A stretch of DNA of 64,000 nucleotides from Jiangella alba (lineage in GTDB: Bacteria; Actinomycetota; Actinomycetes; Jiangellales; Jiangellaceae), in contig NZ_FNUC01000003.1 of NCBI RefSeq assembly GCF_900106035.1, forward strand, positions 2,597,501 through 2,661,500, written 5' to 3'. How positions within the stretch are numbered: position 1 is the first letter of the stretch; each line of letters opens with the position of its first letter. The notes under the pieces are model-generated. The model was not told the origin of the DNA and ran no database searches. It worked only from the letters and a program-made list of their open reading frames with translations. Shown one piece after another: positions 11,608-54,252 of this stretch. Made by a program: the position numbers and the translations under genes.

Positions 11608-11638
11608 TTGACCTCAACCTTAGTTGAGGTATTTGACT
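11608..11638 (+). promoter_or_regulatory. MerR/SoxR-type promoter of the MFS exporter
   Basis: TTGACC (11608-11613), a 19-bp spacer and TTGACT (11633-11638) carry a perfect inverted repeat ACCTCAAC / GTTGAGGT (11611-11618 and 11623-11630). Overlong 19-bp spacers with a centred palindrome are the hallmark of promoters activated by MerR-family proteins, and the CCTCAA-N6-TTGAGG core is the half-site arrangement of SoxR boxes. The ATG at 11645 is 6 nt after the -10 element, so the transcript is probably leaderless. The same layout occurs at 51065-51095. Confidence 0.75.
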
Positions 11639-11644
11639 GTCCCC

Positions 11645-13246
11645 ATGACGTTCGAAGCACGTACCGAAACCGATCACGGCCCGCCGCTGGCCGGCGCGAA
11701 GGAATGGACCGCGCTGGCCGTCCTCAGCCTACCGGCGATGCTCGTGATCATGGACCTGACGGTGCTGCACCTGGCCGTGCCGCACCTGAGCGCCGACCTC
11801 GCGCCGTCATCGTCGCAACTGCTCTGGATCACCGACATCTACGGCTTCCTGATCGCCGGCTTCCTCATCACCATGGGGTCGCTGGGCGACCGGATCGGAC
11901 GGCGGAAGCTGCTGCTCATCGGCGGCGCCGCGTTCGGGGTGGCGTCGGTCCTGTCCGCCTACGCGACCAGCCCCGAGATGCTGATCGGCGCCCGGGCCCT
12001 GATGGGGATCGCCGGCGCGACGCTGATGCCGTCGACGCTGTCGCTGATCCGCAACATGTTCCTCGACGACCGCCAGCGCACCACCGCGATCTCGCTCTGG
12101 ATGATGAGCTTCATGGTCGGCGGCTCCATCGGCCCGCTGGTCGGCGGGGCGCTGCTGGAAGTGTTCTGGTGGGGCTCGGTGTTCCTCGTCGGCGTGCCGG
12201 TCATGGTGCTGCTGCTGGTCGCCGGCCCGTTCCTGCTGCCCGAGTACCGCGACCCCCGCGCCGGCCGGCTCGACCTCTTCAGCGCCGTGCTGCTGCTGGC
12301 CGCCGTCCTGCCGGTGATCTACGGCATCAAGAAGCTCGCGTCCGACGGGTTCGGCTGGCTGCTGGTCGCCGCCATCGCCGCCGGGCTGGTGTTCGCCGTC
12401 ATGTTCGTGCGGCGGCAGCGGTCGCTGGACGACCCGCTGATCGACATCGAGCTGTTCCGCAACCGGGCGTTCGGCGTGACCCTCGGCGTCATGACGACCG
12501 CGACGTTCGCGATGATGGGCCTGAACCTGTTCGTCATGCAGTACCTCCAGCTCGTGCACGGGCTGTCGCCGCTGCGTGCGGGCCTGTGGGTGCTGCCGAT
12601 GACCGGCGCCATGATGATCGGCATGATGGCCGCGCCGCTTCTCGTGCGCTACGTCCGGCCCGGGTACGTCATCAGCGGCGGCCTGCTGGTCAGTTCCGCC
12701 GGCATCGTGCTGATGACGCAGATCGACGGCTCGTCCGGGTTCGGCGTGCTCATCACCGGGACGTGCGTCATGGCGGCCGGGTTCACGCCGCAGGCCGCGC
12801 TCGGCACCGACCTCGTCATCCGGGCCGCGCCGCCGGAGAAGGCGGGCGCCGCGTCGGCCGCGTCGGAGACGGGCAACGAGCTCGGCGGGGCCCTCGGCCT
12901 CGCGATCCTCGGGAGTGTCGGTACCGCCGTCTACCGTTCGGGTATGAGCGACTCCGTGCCCTCCGAGCTGCCCGGCGACGCCGCCGCGGCGGCGGGCGAC
13001 ACCCTGGCCGGCGCCACCGCCGTCGCGGCCACGCTGCCCGACGCCGTCGGCGGCCCACTGCTCGACGCCGCGCGCGCCGCGTTCACCGACGGCCTGCAGG
13101 CCACCGCGGTGGTCAGCGCGCTGGCCGTCCTGGCCGGCGCGGTGCTGGCGGCGGTGCTGCTGCGGCGGGTCGGCACCGACACCGGCCCCAGCGGCGACGC
13201 CCCGCCGTCCGCCGTCGATCCCGCCGCGGAGGTGCCGGTCCCATGA
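11645..13246 (+). CDS. MFS drug exporter, DHA2 (14-TM) type
   Basis: 533 residues. The start at ATG 11645 fits the promoter spacing. The sequence shows the DHA2 signature LDLTVLHLAVPHL (here MDLTVLHLAVPHLSADL), motif A GSLGDRIGRRKLLLIGG, motif C-like GGSIGPLVGGALLEVFWWGSVFLVGVPV, and about 14 hydrophobic segments. Such proton-driven exporters (EmrB/QacA/SmvA type) pump hydrophobic cations, dyes and antibiotics. Its promoter suggests induction by a MerR/SoxR-type redox or drug sensor not encoded in this window. ATGA overlap couples it to the ABC exporter. Confidence 0.9.
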   Translation: MTFEARTETDHGPPLAGAKEWTALAVLSLPAMLVIMDLTVLHLAVPHLSADLAPSSSQLLWITDIYGFLIAGFLITMGSLGDRIGRRKLLLIGGAAFGVASVLSAYATSPEMLIGARALMGIAGATLMPSTLSLIRNMFLDDRQRTTAISLWMMSFMVGGSIGPLVGGALLEVFWWGSVFLVGVPVMVLLLVAGPFLLPEYRDPRAGRLDLFSAVLLLAAVLPVIYGIKKLASDGFGWLLVAAIAAGLVFAVMFVRRQRSLDDPLIDIELFRNRAFGVTLGVMTTATFAMMGLNLFVMQYLQLVHGLSPLRAGLWVLPMTGAMMIGMMAAPLLVRYVRPGYVISGGLLVSSAGIVLMTQIDGSSGFGVLITGTCVMAAGFTPQAALGTDLVIRAAPPEKAGAASAASETGNELGGALGLAILGSVGTAVYRSGMSDSVPSELPGDAAAAAGDTLAGATAVAATLPDAVGGPLLDAARAAFTDGLQATAVVSALAVLAGAVLAAVLLRRVGTDTGPSGDAPPSAVDPAAEVPVP

Positions 13247-15435
13247 GCATGGAGGTCACCGCGTGGAACGCGCTCTACAACGCGATGCACGCGCAGCAGG
13301 ACACCCGCCCGTTCTCGCGCGCCACGCTGCGCCGCATCTTCGCGTTCGCCCAGCCGCACCGGCGCTACCTGGTGGCGTTCACGGCGCTGAGCATCGTGAC
13401 GGCGGTCCTCGCGGTGGCCACGCCGGTGCTCGCCGGCCGCGTCGTCGACGCCATCATGGAGGGGTCGTCCCAGCGCTACGTCATCGGGCTGGCGGTCGTC
13501 ATCGCGGTCATCGCGGTCGCCGAGGCGGGCGTCGGCCTGGTGCAGCGCTGGCTGTCGGCCAGCATCGGTGAGGGGCTCATCCTCGACCTGCGCCAGGCTG
13601 TCTTCGACCACGTGCAGAAGATGCCGGTCGCGTTCTTCACCCGCACCCGCACCGGCGCGCTGGTCAGCCGGCTCAACAACGACGTCATCGGCGCGCAGCG
13701 GGCGTTCAGCGACCTGCTCTCCGGCGTCGTCAGCAACGTCGTCATGCTGGTGCTGGCGCTCATCGTCATGCTGGGCATCTCGTGGCAGATCACGCTGCTC
13801 GCGCTGGCGCTGCTGCCGGTGTTCGTGCTGCCGGCGCGGCGCATGGGCGGCAAGCTGGCCCGGCTCGAACGCGAGGCGGCCAACCACAACGCCGTCATGG
13901 GCACGCAGATGACCGAACGGTTCTCCGCGCCCGGCGCCACGCTGGTGAAGCTGTTCAGCCGGCCCGAGCGCGAGTCGGCCGAGTTCTCCGTCCGGGCCCG
14001 CCGGGTGCGCGACATCGGGCTGCGCACCGCCATGGTGCAGTGGATCTTCGTCACGGCGCTGACGCTGGTCGGCGCGCTGGCGCTGGCCCTGGTGTACGGG
14101 CTGGGCGGGTTCTACGCGCTGCGCGACCAGCTCGACGCCGGCGCCGTCGTGTCCATGGCGCTGCTGCTGACCCGCCTGTACGCGCCGCTCACGGCACTGG
14201 CCAGCGCGCGGGTCGAGGTCATGAGCGCGCTGGTCAGCTTCGCCCGGGTGTTCGAGGTGCTCGACCTCAAGCCGCTCATCGTCGAGAAGCCCGACGCCCG
14301 TCCGGTGCCCGACGGCCCGGTGTCGGTCGAGTTCGACGACGTCCACTTCAGCTACCCGGCGGCGTCCGACGTGTCGCTGGCCTCGCTGGAAGAGGTCGCC
14401 ATGCTCGACACCCGCGGCGGCGACGAAGTCCTGCACGGCGTCTCGTTCACGGCGGCGCCGGGCGAGATGGTGGCGCTGGTCGGGTCGTCCGGCGCCGGGA
14501 AGTCGACCATCGCGCAGCTGCTGCCGCGCCTCTACGACGTCGACACCGGCGCCATCCGCCTCAACGGCGTCGACGTCCGCGACCTCACCACGGCGTCGGT
14601 GCGCCAGGCGCTGGGCATGGTCACCCAGGACGGCCACCTGTTCCACGAGTCGATCCGCGAGAACCTGCTCATCGCCCAGCCGTCCGCGTCCGACGACGAC
14701 CTGTGGGACGTGCTGCGGCGGTCCCGCCTCGACGCCCTGGTGGCGTCGCTGCCCGACGGCCTCGAGACGGTCGTGGGGGAGCGCGGCTACAGGCTGTCCG
14801 GGGGCGAGCGGCAGCGGCTGACGATCGCGCGGCTGCTGCTGGCCCGGCCACGGGTGGTCATCCTCGACGAAGCGACGGCGCACCTCGACTCCACCTCCGA
14901 GGCCGCGGTGCAGGAGGCGCTCGGCGAGGCCCTGGAAGGGCGCACGGCCGTCGTCATCGCCCACCGGCTGTCGACGGTGCGGTCGGCCGACCAGATCCTC
15001 GTCATCGAGGCCGGTCGCGTGGTCGAGCGGGGGACCCATCCGGAGCTGCTCTCGGCCGATGGCCGGTATGCGCAGCTCTACCGCACCCAGTTCGACCAGC
15101 CCGCCGCCGACCGCTCGGCCGCCGATGCCCCGGCGGACCCAGGGCCCGCCGACGCTGAGCTGGCCGATGCTGGGCTGGCTGATTCTGGGCTGGCTGATTC
15201 TGGGCTGGCTGATTCTGGGCTGGCTGATTCTGGGTCGGCTGAGGCCGAGCTGGCGGATGGCGGGCTGGCCGATGCCGAGCTGGCTGATGCTGGGCTGGCC
15301 GATGCCGGGCCGGCTGATGCTGCGCCGGCTGATGGCGGGCCGGCCGACGCTGGGCCGGTGGCGGACGACCGCCGCGCGGGTGCCGCGCCTGGCGCGGCTC
15401 AGACCGATGCCGGCGAGGAGGTGGTGCCGCGCTGA
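13243..15435 (+). CDS. ABC exporter (fused permease-ATPase) with Ala/Asp-rich repeat tail
   Basis: 730 residues. A six-TM type 1 exporter domain (about 35-330) is followed by an ATPase with Walker A GSSGAGKST, signature LSGGERQR, Walker B VVILDEATAHLDS and H-loop IAHRLST. The body ends about residue 625; the remaining hundred residues are a low-complexity tail of pentapeptides like LADSG/LADAG. It starts inside the stop of the MFS gene, so the two probable drug exporters share one SoxR-type promoter. As a half-transporter it should act as a homodimer. Its end overlaps the convergent esterase gene by 37 bp. Confidence 0.9.
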   Translation: MSMEVTAWNALYNAMHAQQDTRPFSRATLRRIFAFAQPHRRYLVAFTALSIVTAVLAVATPVLAGRVVDAIMEGSSQRYVIGLAVVIAVIAVAEAGVGLVQRWLSASIGEGLILDLRQAVFDHVQKMPVAFFTRTRTGALVSRLNNDVIGAQRAFSDLLSGVVSNVVMLVLALIVMLGISWQITLLALALLPVFVLPARRMGGKLARLEREAANHNAVMGTQMTERFSAPGATLVKLFSRPERESAEFSVRARRVRDIGLRTAMVQWIFVTALTLVGALALALVYGLGGFYALRDQLDAGAVVSMALLLTRLYAPLTALASARVEVMSALVSFARVFEVLDLKPLIVEKPDARPVPDGPVSVEFDDVHFSYPAASDVSLASLEEVAMLDTRGGDEVLHGVSFTAAPGEMVALVGSSGAGKSTIAQLLPRLYDVDTGAIRLNGVDVRDLTTASVRQALGMVTQDGHLFHESIRENLLIAQPSASDDDLWDVLRRSRLDALVASLPDGLETVVGERGYRLSGGERQRLTIARLLLARPRVVILDEATAHLDSTSEAAVQEALGEALEGRTAVVIAHRLSTVRSADQILVIEAGRVVERGTHPELLSADGRYAQLYRTQFDQPAADRSAADAPADPGPADAELADAGLADSGLADSGLADSGLADSGSAEAELADGGLADAELADAGLADAGPADAAPADGGPADAGPVADDRRAGAAPGAAQTDAGEEVVPR
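15151..15360 (+). repeat. 15-bp minisatellite inside the ABC exporter gene
   Basis: The unit GATTCTGGGCTGGCT occurs in tandem at 15181-15240 (three exact copies and a variant), and degenerate copies extend over the whole interval, about 14 units. Because the unit is 15 bp it stays in frame and encodes the five-residue repeat of the protein tail. Confidence 0.85.
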
Positions 15436-50083: not shown

Positions 50084-51058
50084 TTAGGTCACCAGCAGCG
50101 ACTTGCCGACGGTCGCACGGGCCTCCAGCGCCGTGTGCGCGTCGGCGGCCCGGTCCAGCGGATGGGCGGCGGCGATGACGGGGCGCAGCCGTCCGGCGGC
50201 GGCGAGCGCCAGCGCCGCGGCGAGCAACTCGCGGACGGCCGCCCGATCAAGCCGCGTGGCCAGGGCGTTCGTCACCTCGATGCGCCGGTTCGCGGCCCGC
50301 TCGGCATCGACCTCGGTGAACCCGCCGCCGGCGGTGCCGTAGGTGACGAACCGGCCGCCACGCGCGACCGTCTCGAAGGCCGCCGCGCCGAGCCCGCCGG
50401 GCCCGCCGCCGGCCCCGTCGAACGCGACCTCCACGCCGTCGCCGCCGGTGGCCGCGCGGACCCGATGCTGCCAGCCATCCTCGCCGTAGTCGACGGTCAG
50501 GTCGGCACCGAGGTCGCGGGCGAGGGCCAGCTTGCGCTCCCCGCGGGCGGCCGCGACCACCCGGGCGCCGGCCGCCGTGGCGAGCTGGACCAGCAGCGAT
50601 CCCGCTCCTCCGGCGGCGGCCGCGATCAGCACGGTGTCGCCGGCGGCTACCGGCGCGTGGCGGAGCAGGCCGAGCGCCGTCACGCCGTCGTGCAGCAGCG
50701 CGGCCGCGTCGGTCCAGCCGACGCCGCCGGGCAGCTCGACCAGCTCGTCGAGGCCGGCGGTCATCCGGTCCGCGTAGCCGCCGGAGCCGCGGGCCAGCAC
50801 CCGGCGGCCCACCCAGCCGGGGTCGACGCCTGGGCCGGTGGCGACGACGGTGCCCGCTCCCCCGCCGCCGGGCACGTACGGCGGCCGCAGCGGGAAGTGC
50901 TCGCCGCCCCAGCCGCCGCGCAGCAGGGTGTCCAGGTAGATCACATCGGCGGCCGCCAGCGCGATGACGACCTGTCCCGGCCCGGCGACCGGGTCCGGGA
51001 CCTCGCGGGCGACCAGGACCTCCGGCCCGCCGAACTCACGTACCTCGATGGCTCGCAT
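50084..51058 (-). CDS. Zinc-less quinone oxidoreductase (MDR superfamily)
   Basis: 324 residues from ATG 51058. Starts MRAIEVREFGGPEVLVAREV as in QOR proteins; the cofactor motif is TVLIAAAAGGAGSLLVQLATAAGARVVAAARGERKL (AxxGGxG), and the zinc-binding Cys/His set of alcohol dehydrogenases is missing. These enzymes reduce quinones and other electrophiles with NADPH. The promoter is the same SoxR/MerR type as that of the MFS exporter, consistent with redox-drug detoxification. Confidence 0.9.
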   Translation of the reverse strand: MRAIEVREFGGPEVLVAREVPDPVAGPGQVVIALAAADVIYLDTLLRGGWGGEHFPLRPPYVPGGGGAGTVVATGPGVDPGWVGRRVLARGSGGYADRMTAGLDELVELPGGVGWTDAAALLHDGVTALGLLRHAPVAAGDTVLIAAAAGGAGSLLVQLATAAGARVVAAARGERKLALARDLGADLTVDYGEDGWQHRVRAATGGDGVEVAFDGAGGGPGGLGAAAFETVARGGRFVTYGTAGGGFTEVDAERAANRRIEVTNALATRLDRAAVRELLAAALALAAAGRLRPVIAAAHPLDRAADAHTALEARATVGKSLLVT

Positions 51059-51064
51059 GCCGGC

Positions 51065-51095
51065 AGTCTGCGACCTCAACCACTGTTGAGGTCAA
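51065..51095 (-). promoter_or_regulatory. MerR/SoxR-type promoter of the quinone oxidoreductase
   Basis: On the minus strand TTGACC (51095-51090), a 19-bp spacer and CAGACT (51070-51065) carry the perfect inverted repeat GACCTCAAC / GTTGAGGTC (51072-51080, 51085-51093). ATG starts 6 nt after the -10 element. Every distance equals that of the MFS promoter at 11608. Confidence 0.75.
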
Positions 51096-51829
51096 GCCAG
51101 CAGCAGCGCCGCCAGCGCGCCGGCCAGCATCGGCGGGCCGAACGGCAGGCTCGTCCGCCGGCCCGCCCGCCCCACCGCCAGCAGCACGATCCCGATCAGC
51201 CCGCCGGCCAGGAACGCCAGGAACACCCCGCCGGCGACCGTGGACCAGCCGGCCCAGCCCAGCAACAGTCCCAGCGACGCCGACAGCTTCACGTCGCCGA
51301 GGCCGAGGTCGGCCGGGCGGAGCAGCGCCAGCAGCAGGTAGAAGGCCAGGCACGCGGCGGCGGCCGCCCAGGCGCGTCCGTAGGCGCTCCAGTCGCCGGT
51401 GAGGGCGGCGGCGACCGTCAGCCAAGCGCCGGCCGCGCCGAACGCCGTCAGGGTGAGCCAGTCGGGCAGCAGCTGGGTGCGCAGGTCGACGTACGCCATC
51501 GCGACGCCGAGCAGCCCCACCGCGAGGTAGGCCGGCAGGTCCTCGGGCGCGGTCGCCGCGCCGTCGCGGGCGATCGTCAGCAGCGCCCACACCGCCGCCG
51601 TCGCGACGGCCAGCCAGGCCGCCAGCCGGGGCGCGGCGGCCAGTTCCCGGTACGGCACCGGCGTCGGCGGCCGGCCGCCCTCGATCAGCTCCGGGGACAC
51701 CGGCTCGGCGGCCGCCGGTTCGGTGGCCGGGACGGTGACCGGAGGGCGGTCCGGGATGCGCGCGATCAGCCGCGGCAGCAGGGCGCCGGCGAGCAGGCCG
51801 GCCGCCGCCAGGACGAGCGCGAGGGTCAC
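51092..51829 (-). CDS. A24-family prepilin peptidase
   Basis: 245 residues with about seven hydrophobic segments. The two catalytic Asp lie in AMAYVDLRTQLLPDWLT and in LGLGDVKLSASLGLLLG (GxGD motif), both present. The N-terminal methyltransferase part of classical PilD is absent, as in most actinobacteria. It should cleave type IV pilin or Tad/Flp-like precursors at the membrane. GTG overlaps the aroE stop. Confidence 0.88.
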   Translation of the reverse strand: MTLALVLAAAGLLAGALLPRLIARIPDRPPVTVPATEPAAAEPVSPELIEGGRPPTPVPYRELAAAPRLAAWLAVATAAVWALLTIARDGAATAPEDLPAYLAVGLLGVAMAYVDLRTQLLPDWLTLTAFGAAGAWLTVAAALTGDWSAYGRAWAAAAACLAFYLLLALLRPADLGLGDVKLSASLGLLLGWAGWSTVAGGVFLAFLAGGLIGIVLLAVGRAGRRTSLPFGPPMLAGALAALLLA

Positions 51830-52653
51830 GCGCGGGCGCCGATCGCCGCGAGCGCCGCCGACCGCAGCACGTCGACCGGGACGTCGGCGCCGGTCATCAG
51901 GCGCACCTGGCCGACCGCCTGGTGGGCGAGCAGGTCCAGGCCGCTGGCCACCACGCCGCCGGCCGCCTGCCACGCCGCCGCCACCGGCGTCGGCCACGGG
52001 TCGTACACGACGTCGAACAGCACCCGGTCGGTGGCTCCGGCCGCGGCGACGGCGGTCGCGAGCTCGTCCAGCGCGCCGGACGGCGCCGTCGTCACCGTGA
52101 CGCCGGCGTCGGCGCAGGCCGGCAGGACGGCCCAGGGCGCGGGCTCGGCCGGGTGGCCCAGCGCGGCCGCCACGGCCAGCGCCGCCTCGGCCCGGGCCGC
52201 GGACCGGACGTGCACGTGCACCGGGCCGCTCTCCAGGAACGCCAGCGCCGCCAGCACGCTCGCCGCCGTCGCGCCGCCGCCCCACAGGCACACCGGAGCG
52301 GCCACGGCCGCCCCGGCCTCGCGCAGGGTCGCCACGATGCCCGGCACGTCGGTGTTGTCGGCGTCCCAGCCGCCGTGGTCGCGGCGGACCAGGGTGTTCG
52401 CCGCGCCGACCGTGGCCGCCACATCGGAGGCCGACGTCGCGAGGTCGAGCGCCACCCGCTTGAGCGGCATCGTCAGGGAGAGACCCCGCCAGCCCGCTCC
52501 GAGCGAAGCCACGAACCCGGCCAGCCCGGCCTCGTCGACCTCGTGCGCGGTGTACTCCCAGTCCAGCCCGAGCTGCCGGTACGCGGCGCGGTGGATCACC
52601 GGCGACAACGAGTGCGCGATCGGCGAGCCGAGCACCGCGCAGCGGGTCAGCAC
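51826..52653 (-). CDS. aroE: Shikimate dehydrogenase
   Basis: 275 residues. Substrate motif VLGSPIAHSLSPVIHRAAY, catalytic Lys in SLTMPLKRVALD, ANTLVRR and DNTD. The nucleotide motif GGGATAASVLAALA replaces the usual GAGGAA; no obvious NRT motif after it, seen instead as VHVRSAARAE. It reduces 3-dehydroshikimate with NADPH in aromatic amino acid synthesis. Overlaps the mltG stop by 7 bp. Confidence 0.9.
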   Translation of the reverse strand: MLTRCAVLGSPIAHSLSPVIHRAAYRQLGLDWEYTAHEVDEAGLAGFVASLGAGWRGLSLTMPLKRVALDLATSASDVAATVGAANTLVRRDHGGWDADNTDVPGIVATLREAGAAVAAPVCLWGGGATAASVLAALAFLESGPVHVHVRSAARAEAALAVAAALGHPAEPAPWAVLPACADAGVTVTTAPSGALDELATAVAAAGATDRVLFDVVYDPWPTPVAAAWQAAGGVVASGLDLLAHQAVGQVRLMTGADVPVDVLRSAALAAIGARA

Positions 52654-53798
52654 AGGTCGCTCTCCGTGCAGTACTCGTCCAGCCGGGCGATGTTCGCGTC
52701 GTGGTCCGCGGCGGTGACGGCGAACGCGGTCTCGCCGGTCTCCAGGTTGACGGCGACGAAGTAGCAGCTGCCGTCGCTGGCCGGGTTGAGCGCAGCCGCC
52801 AGCGCCGCGTCGCCGGGGGCCGCGATGGGGCCGGGTGGCAGGCCGGACACCAGGTAGGTGTTGTACGGCGATTCGCTCTGCCGCTGCTCCGGCGACGTGT
52901 AGACCGTCGAGTAGTCGTCGAAGGCGTAGTGGACGGTGGAGTCCATCTGCAGCCGCTCCCTCACCACGCCATTGGCAGCGCAGGCGCCGGTGAGGCGGTT
53001 GTAGACGACCTCGGCGACCTTGGGCATGTCCTCCTCGCGGCGCACCTCGCGCTGGACGATGCTGGCGACCGTGACGATCTCGCGCGGTGTGTAGCCGAGC
53101 GCCTCGGCGCGGCTGACGAGGTCGACGTCGGTGGCGGTCTGCTCGAAGCGGGCCACCATCGAGGCGACCAGCGACTCGGGCGTCACCTCGCCGCCGAGGT
53201 CGTACGAGGCCGGATAGAGGAAGCCCTCGGCCTCGCCCTCGGCGTACTCGGGCAGCGTCGCGGCGTCGACGGCGGCCTGCAGCTCCTCGGCGGTGAAGCC
53301 GGACGCCTCGGCCAGCCGGTCGACGGTCTGGCGGACGCGCAGGCCCTCGGGCAGCGACACCCGCGCGCCGCCCTCGCCCGCGACCAGCGCGGCGACGGCG
53401 TCGGCGGCGGTCATCTCGCTGCGCAGCACGTAGTTGCCGGGCTGGATGCCACGGGACTCGGGGTTGTCGTCGGCGGCCGCGATGAACGCGTCCTGGCTGG
53501 CGACGATGCCGGCGTCGACCAGCGTGGCGCCCATGGCCCGCAGCGTGGCGCCGTCCTGGATGGTGACCGGTACCTCGCCGGTGCCCGGGCCCGGGAAGTC
53601 CTCGGGCTCGCCGAACAGGCCGTCGACGCTGTTGAGCACCGCATTGCCGCCGTAGTAGACGCCGCCCAGAACCGCGCCGATGACGGCCAGCGAGGCCAGC
53701 ACCGCCACGAACGAACCGAACCGGCTGCGTTTGCGCCTGCGGCGGCGCTGCCGCCGGGGGCGGACGATCTCCTCCTCCGACGTGAACAGGTCACTCAT
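52647..53798 (-). CDS. mltG: Endolytic transglycosylase MltG (YceG-like)
   Basis: 383 residues. A basic cytoplasmic N-terminus (RPRRQRRRRRKRSRF), one TM helix, a LysM-like region and the YceG domain with VASIVQREVRREEDMPKVAEVVYNRL, QMDSTVHYAF and NTYLVSGLPPGPIAAPGDAALAAALNP. It cuts nascent peptidoglycan glycan strands at the membrane. Located between ruvX and aroE as usual in actinobacteria; overlaps ruvX by 8 bp. Confidence 0.93.
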   Translation of the reverse strand: MSDLFTSEEEIVRPRRQRRRRRKRSRFGSFVAVLASLAVIGAVLGGVYYGGNAVLNSVDGLFGEPEDFPGPGTGEVPVTIQDGATLRAMGATLVDAGIVASQDAFIAAADDNPESRGIQPGNYVLRSEMTAADAVAALVAGEGGARVSLPEGLRVRQTVDRLAEASGFTAEELQAAVDAATLPEYAEGEAEGFLYPASYDLGGEVTPESLVASMVARFEQTATDVDLVSRAEALGYTPREIVTVASIVQREVRREEDMPKVAEVVYNRLTGACAANGVVRERLQMDSTVHYAFDDYSTVYTSPEQRQSESPYNTYLVSGLPPGPIAAPGDAALAAALNPASDGSCYFVAVNLETGETAFAVTAADHDANIARLDEYCTESDLC

Positions 53799-54251
53799 CC
53801 GATACCGTCAGCACCTCTCCAGGCGGCTCGCCGGTCGCACGTTCGGCGTCCAGCGCATCTTGCAGGATCACCATCGCCGCGGCCTGGTCGACCGCGGGAC
53901 GTCCAGCACGCGACGAGACACCGCTGGCTCGCATCCCGCGCGCGGCGACGGTCGTGCTCAGTCGTTCGTCGACCAGCCGCACCGGGCATGGTGCCACATA
54001 TCGGGCCAAATCGGCACCAAAGGCGCGGGCATGCGCGGCCGCCGCGTGTTCCTTCCCATCGAGACTACGCGGTAATCCGAGGACGATCTCGATCGCCTCG
54101 TACTCGTGCGCCAGATCGCGGAGCCGCCGCAGGTCACCCTTCCCGCGGCGGACCGTCTCGACCGGCGTGGCGATCAGCCCGCCGGGGTCGCACGACGCGA
54201 CCCCGATGCGGACCGTTCCGACATCGACCCCCAGTCTGACGCCGCGCCGCA

Positions 54252-54252
<1 letters not shown>
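53791..54252 (-). CDS. ruvX: Holliday junction resolvase RuvX (YqgF)
   Basis: 153 residues. RNase H-like fold with GVDVGTVRIGVASCDPGG, IVLGLPRSLDG, RLVDERLSTT and DQAAAMVILQ; the acidic active-site residues are in place. It is implicated in Holliday junction and 16S rRNA 5' maturation. It starts at 54252, the last base of the alaS stop. Confidence 0.93.

Follow-up and report, generated by a model that had tools for sequence, protein, structure and literature searches.

What drives the expression of a predicted quinone reductase gene in the soil actinomycete Jiangella alba, and is its promoter shared in kind with other genes of the organism? The window, by which we mean the whole stretch of 64,000 nucleotides that was analysed, carries the gene on its minus strand. 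The first-pass annotation had described a promoter of the form TTGACC-N19-CAGACT-N6-ATG with a palindrome embedded in it, and direct reading of the minus strand from 51095 to 51056 confirmed this layout. The −35 hexamer TTGACC (51095-51090) is followed by a spacer of 19 nt (51089-51071), the −10 hexamer CAGACT (51070-51065), a gap of 6 nt, GCCGGC (51064-51059), and the start codon ATG (51058-51056), with which the predicted transcription start coincides. A putative SoxR box, ACCTCAACAGTGGTTGAGGT (51073-51092, minus strand), lies in the 19-bp spacer. By direct reading of the minus strand, the palindrome is perfect, both as ACCTCAAC-N4-GTTGAGGT and as GACCTCAAC-N4-GTTGAGGTC (51072-51093).

The gene itself (50084-51058, minus strand) encodes an NADPH:quinone oxidoreductase-like protein (QOR) of 324 aa with ADH_N and ADH_zinc_N domains. 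Its best NCBIfam match is PIG3 (TIGR02824) with 162.9 bits over the full length; as this is below the curated cut-off of 296.8, the protein is named QOR-like only. Orthologues (E ≤ 1e-60) were found in four of the 12 genomes of the genus Jiangella, the own genome included, so QOR is an accessory member of the regulon described below. All four, own included, keep TTGACC, the box, AGACT of the −10 hexamer and an ATG 6 or 7 nt further on. The centre of the palindrome (four bases) is equal in two of them (G000 and G010) and different in the other two. Upstream, a minus-strand frame at 51092-52291, prepilin-peptidase-like by reading, ends in a TGA stop that falls within the QOR −35 hexamer (51090-51095); the same overlap of stop and −35 was read in G010, G002 and G001. 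The region 51826-54252 presumably represents a housekeeping cluster, with frames resembling shikimate dehydrogenase, MltG and RuvX/YqgF.

A companion promoter lies on the plus strand of the window, ahead of an exporter unit (11608-15435). It consists of the −35 hexamer TTGACC (11608-11613), the box ACCTCAACCTTAGTTGAGGT (11611-11630), the −10 hexamer TTGACT (11633-11638) 19 nt after the −35, six further nucleotides (GTCCCC) and the ATG at 11645-11647. The palindrome at 11610-11631 has one outer-base mismatch. It had been claimed that core, spacer and start distance are the same in the two promoters. This is true of the −35, the 19-nt spacer and the 6-nt start distance, while the two promoters diverge in the −10 hexamer (CAGACT versus TTGACT) and in the four central bases. 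The first gene of the unit encodes an MFS exporter (11645-13246), whose best NCBIfam matches, QepA and LfrA, are both below cut-off. The second, joined to it by an ATGA overlap in a presumed operon, encodes an ABC exporter (13243-15435). MFS orthologues are present in 12/12 genus genomes, own included, and all have the strict box with an ATG at offset 37 or 38 from the −35. The ABC gene is next after the MFS gene in all 12, with the frames overlapping in ten (ATGA in nine, TGATG in G005) and separated by a few bases in G003 and G006. Comparison of upstream regions thus found box and spacing kept in every orthologue of both genes. Furthermore, the window ABC protein shares 77, 75 and 74% identity with three ABC proteins which have a strict SoxR box of their own and start 6-7 nt after their own −10, namely those of Streptomyces bambusae (L179), L314 and L317, the latter two compared over 495 aa up to the end of the locus.

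To see the two promoters in the context of the genome (7.68 Mb), ACCTCAACNNNNGTTGAGGT was searched in both orientations with up to three mismatches, along with a reversed control. The search gave 21 sites as against one for the control; the earlier count of two independent occurrences is therefore correct for the window and an understatement for the genome. Eleven of the sites have TTGACC in register before a reading frame, and the regulon of about 11 promoters is defined by these, the ten sites without it being dropped. The proposal of a small detoxification regulon is supported, its restriction to the window being too narrow. Besides the window QOR and the window MFS-ABC unit, the members are a PPOX-like protein with a weak match to TIGR03667, a protein read as an ABC ATP-binding protein, whose start is uncertain, a member of the SgcJ/EcaC family that scores above cut-off and has behind it a frame which by reading is NAD(P)-binding-like, an MFS protein 51% identical to the window MFS, a second MFS-like protein (weak matches) and an F420-type LLM oxidoreductase (below cut-offs). 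The remaining three are divergent from soxR genes: a quinone reductase 44% identical to the window QOR beside soxR1, an MFS protein, by reading, beside soxR2, and an NAD(P)-binding, NmrA-like protein, by reading and with weak matches, beside soxR3.

The distance between the −10 hexamer and the start codon is the second feature that these promoters share. It is 6-7 nt in nine of the 11 home promoters and 8 nt in one, that on the soxR2 side. For the quinone reductase on the soxR1 side, about 85 nt separate the ATG from the box, and the gene is not leaderless in the home genome (L071:1929-2034); in G011 and G007 (L246, L244) the ATG stands 7 nt after the −10, an apparent change between a leaderless and a leadered form from genome to genome. 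Across the family, the strict box was found at 53 sites in 16 of the 22 genomes, six having none, and its −10 ends in T at the 19-bp spacing in 53/53. An ATG or GTG stands at offset 37 or 38 from the −35, i.e., 6-7 nt after the −10, in 48 of the 53, a count made with a search that did not demand a start codon. All 48 open a frame; ATG or GTG starts with an open frame fall 26 and 22 times on the two offsets, compared with 68 in all on the 85 others. The proportion is 45/47 within the genus and 3/6 in the rest of the family. As many of the genus boxes are mutually orthologous, fewer of them are independent, and the 9/11 of the home promoters gives a rough idea of their number. Outside the own genome, 9/16 boxes in the phylum sample have the 6-7 nt distance. 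If the −10 hexamer occupies −12 to −7, the start codon would come to lie at +1 or +2, and leaderless mRNA is the straightforward reading. From the six-base gap between −10 and ATG, we infer that the QOR mRNA is leaderless, and by eye neither window ATG is preceded within 14 bases by a Shine-Dalgarno-like run.

The layout with the ATG demanded was also searched in species genomes and occurs at no fewer than 118 sites, though such a pattern is uninformative on the frequency of leaderless starts. Among the 118 matches listed, 114 carry actinobacterial record titles, and the frame after the ATG closes within 60 codons in eight. A rough script test found a SoxR-like motif pair in 27 of the 118 loci listed, each of up to 8 kb. 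One of the sites, with the box and a SoxR-like motif pair nearby (L113:2333-2372), is on a contig titled Vibrio cholerae strain 35D; its downstream frame resembles those of the Arthrobacter loci L137 and L138, and the title may be wrong or the contig contaminated.

Which protein would act on these boxes? Three proteins of the home genome exceed the TIGR01950 cut-off for SoxR. All three have the motif C-x2-C-x-C-x5-C, which we take to be that of the SoxR four-cysteine cluster; the scan for this motif covered plus-strand matches only, and the count of three rests on the separate profile searches. SoxR1 matches E. coli SoxR (2zhg) with E = 1.3e-53 across the helix-turn-helix and the four cysteines. 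In both window promoters, a palindrome of the CCTCAA type is situated between −35 and −10 in a spacer which at 19 bp exceeds 17 bp. At the level of the phylum, the strict box TTGACCTCAASNNNNSTTGAGGT, for which perfect arms were demanded, occurs in 12 of 296 genomes, every one of which has SoxR. SoxR was found in 70 of the 296 (69 above cut-off), and 58 of these 70 are without a strict box. The hypergeometric probability of this co-occurrence is 1.4e-8, a value that ignores kinship, six of the 12 box genomes belonging to one genus. Experimental precedent comes from Stenotrophomonas maltophilia, where the mfsA box ACCTCAACTGCAGTTGAGGT binds SoxR and binding is lost on mutation, according to the available text of PMC4411124; its arms are identical to those of the window box. 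Genes for quinone oxidoreductases, ABC transporters and MFS exporters are known SoxR targets in the accessible parts of the same source and PMC4146615, and the statement made earlier that quinone oxidoreductases are among them is borne out by Streptomyces coelicolor (PMC4146615). Taken together, soxR genes adjoining boxes, the co-occurrence and the arms of a proven box support SoxR, which had been named from the outset, as the best candidate regulator of both window promoters in preference to an unspecified MerR protein.

The three SoxR proteins fall into classes that recur in the genus. With classes assigned by reading of sequences and boxes rather than from a tree, and a search that covered the 12 genus genomes at E ≤ 1e-20, SoxR1 was found in 12/12, SoxR2 in seven and SoxR3 in six. 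Three genomes (G004, G007 and G011) have SoxR1 as their only SoxR and still carry 3, 4 and 4 strict boxes, respectively, which indicates that SoxR1 suffices. Judging from its presence throughout the genus and its position as sole SoxR found in three genomes, SoxR1 is probably the main regulator. SoxR3 differs from it in the recognition helix, GVPASTLR[YF]YE as compared with GVAVSALHFYE. One arm reads GTTC[AG]GGT in all six of the boxes that belong to SoxR3 itself, the other arm being ACTTAAAC in five and ACTTCAAC in the sixth. The specificity of SoxR3 may thus have shifted toward GTTCAGGT half-sites, which should be seen as a lead and not as a result. The same C-to-G change is found in SoxR1 own boxes, on one arm in 7/12 genomes and on both arms in G004, and this opposes a clean division between SoxR1 and SoxR3 boxes. 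The SoxR3 class was read at L084:2530-2549, L254 and L257-L261, and the SoxR3 of the home genome is C-terminally short.

Other explanations of the two promoters have to be weighed against SoxR. That the palindrome is a functionless product of chance has next to no probability. As had been argued earlier, chance is an unlikely source of such a pattern: with up to three mismatches it occurs at only two sites in the window and in none of 100 dinucleotide shuffles, the 22 family genomes gave 0 matches to the reversed control, and the reversed control of the genome search as well as the conservation among orthologues speak against it in the same way. A long spacer with a dyad is common to MerR-family promoters, and the home genome has 26 PF00376 and 27 PF13411 matches, mostly in the same genes, so that another MerR-family protein, a metal or drug sensor, might be thought to run both promoters. 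We consider this very improbable. The matches resolve into 27 MerR-type places, one broken PF13411 fragment being left out, and only the three soxR genes among them, at 30, 42 and 54 bp, come as close as 60 bp to a box; for the MerR-type match that follows in order of distance, the value is 2227 bp. The occurrence of SoxR in every strict-box genome of the phylum and the half-sites shared with a proven SoxR box also stand against this explanation.

Within SoxR, the part of main regulator of the window promoters could be assigned to SoxR2 or SoxR3 instead of SoxR1, since both are encoded in the genome, each beside a box, and QOR is confined to four genomes which hold all three SoxR proteins. This assignment is rather unlikely, because neither protein reaches beyond seven and six of the 12 genomes, respectively, whereas the MFS box is present in all 12, including the three with SoxR1 only. 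SoxR3, moreover, has the different recognition helix and the GTTC[AG]GGT arm in its own boxes, and it also occurs in G003 and G005, both without QOR. A pairing of QOR with SoxR3, suggested by the coincidence of the four QOR genomes with the four that have three SoxR proteins, was dropped on account of these two genomes. On the MFS tree, the four-genome QOR set needs two changes. SoxR1 therefore remains the preferred regulator. As to the start codon, the true one could lie further downstream behind a normal leader and the six-base gap could reflect a chance ATG, and indeed 7/16 strict boxes in the phylum sample have no start codon at that distance. The near-uniform offset of ATG or GTG among the genus boxes speaks against this, and the alignment with the QOR orthologues of the three other genomes begins at the very first residue behind the ATG; a leadered mRNA accordingly has a poor chance of being correct, and the leaderless reading is kept.

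On the preferred reading, a dimer of SoxR, a [2Fe-2S] redox sensor, would sit on the palindrome in the over-long 19-bp spacer. Oxidised E. coli SoxR untwists an over-long spacer and thereby activates transcription. Likewise, a redox-cycling compound as the inducer would oxidise the SoxR cluster, the DNA would be distorted in such a way as to bring −35 and −10 into register, and RNA polymerase could start. The first base transcribed would be the A of the ATG, which follows the −10 at a distance of six bases, and QOR would be made from a leaderless mRNA. The MFS-ABC operon (11645-15435) would be driven by its promoter of the same build, and the two units together might reduce and export redox-active compounds. 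A SoxR-activated promoter with a leaderless QOR mRNA, together with a like-built MFS-ABC promoter, is very probably the correct joint explanation of what is seen at both places. In the home genome, the boxes of the soxR genes are followed at 20, 5 and 17 nt by the nearest plausible start codons. Autorepression is brought about in S. maltophilia by a box that covers the soxR start site, as given in the available text of PMC4411124, and by analogy activation of the targets may be combined with autorepression of soxR in the home genome.

The comparison with known systems shows both common and distinct features. The S. coelicolor SoxR regulon, as far as the accessible text of PMC4146615 describes it, comprises six genes (SCO7008, SCO1909, SCO1178, SCO4266, SCO2478 and SCO0320ext), among them the quinone oxidoreductase SCO0320ext, the oxidoreductase SCO4266 and the ABC transporter SCO7008, and shares with Jiangella alba the SoxR box in a common promoter architecture as well as the quinone oxidoreductase and ABC transporter targets. 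Measured against the same text, Jiangella alba differs in having about 11 promoters instead of six genes, three SoxR paralogues each beside a box where S. coelicolor soxR is not autoregulated, and MFS exporters among the targets (PMC4146615). The near-uniform start distance of 6-7 nt is a Jiangella feature, the S. coelicolor regulon having been compared without its start distances (PMC4146615). The mfsA-soxR locus of S. maltophilia has, in the text available of PMC4411124, identical arms, an MFS target and a divergent soxR with the box near its start in common with the Jiangella system. S. maltophilia is a proteobacterium with mfsA divergent from soxR, in contrast to the window targets, both of which are unlinked to soxR (PMC4411124). 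With E. coli SoxR (PDB 2zhg/2zhh), the resemblance of SoxR1 extends over helix-turn-helix and cysteine motif, and the over-long spacer is found in both; E. coli uses a SoxS relay, whereas none is proposed in Jiangella alba, where the structural genes carry the box themselves. Leaderless mRNA has been described for a MerR-type repressor, CvkR, which is made from such an mRNA according to the part of PMC9938897 available.

The control of quinone reductases and exporters by SoxR is already known. The near-uniform leaderless layout appears to be new within the literature searched, as does the SoxR paralogue whose box has changed; among the titles listed there was no paper on SoxR with leaderless mRNA, and nothing was found on Jiangella with SoxR; the word "leaderless" is absent from the main text of PMC4146615. 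We lean towards the broader view that nearly the whole SoxR regulon of the genus is leaderless by design, with box, −10 and start forming a fixed 40-base module, so that nearly all mRNAs induced by redox stress through it would be leaderless, and that SoxR has split into three paralogues of which SoxR3 has a changed helix and box. A regulator can now be assigned with confidence to a quinone reductase that is unremarkable in other respects and to the MFS-ABC exporter operon, and a SoxR regulon of about 11 promoters is described for Jiangella. If the broader view is true, the genus would have a stress regulon with nearly all members leaderless, and the reason for leaderless initiation in stress genes could be tested by means of a single regulator with its fixed promoter module. 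Since their boxes differ, the three SoxR classes would likewise allow the evolution of SoxR specificity to be tested in a natural setting.
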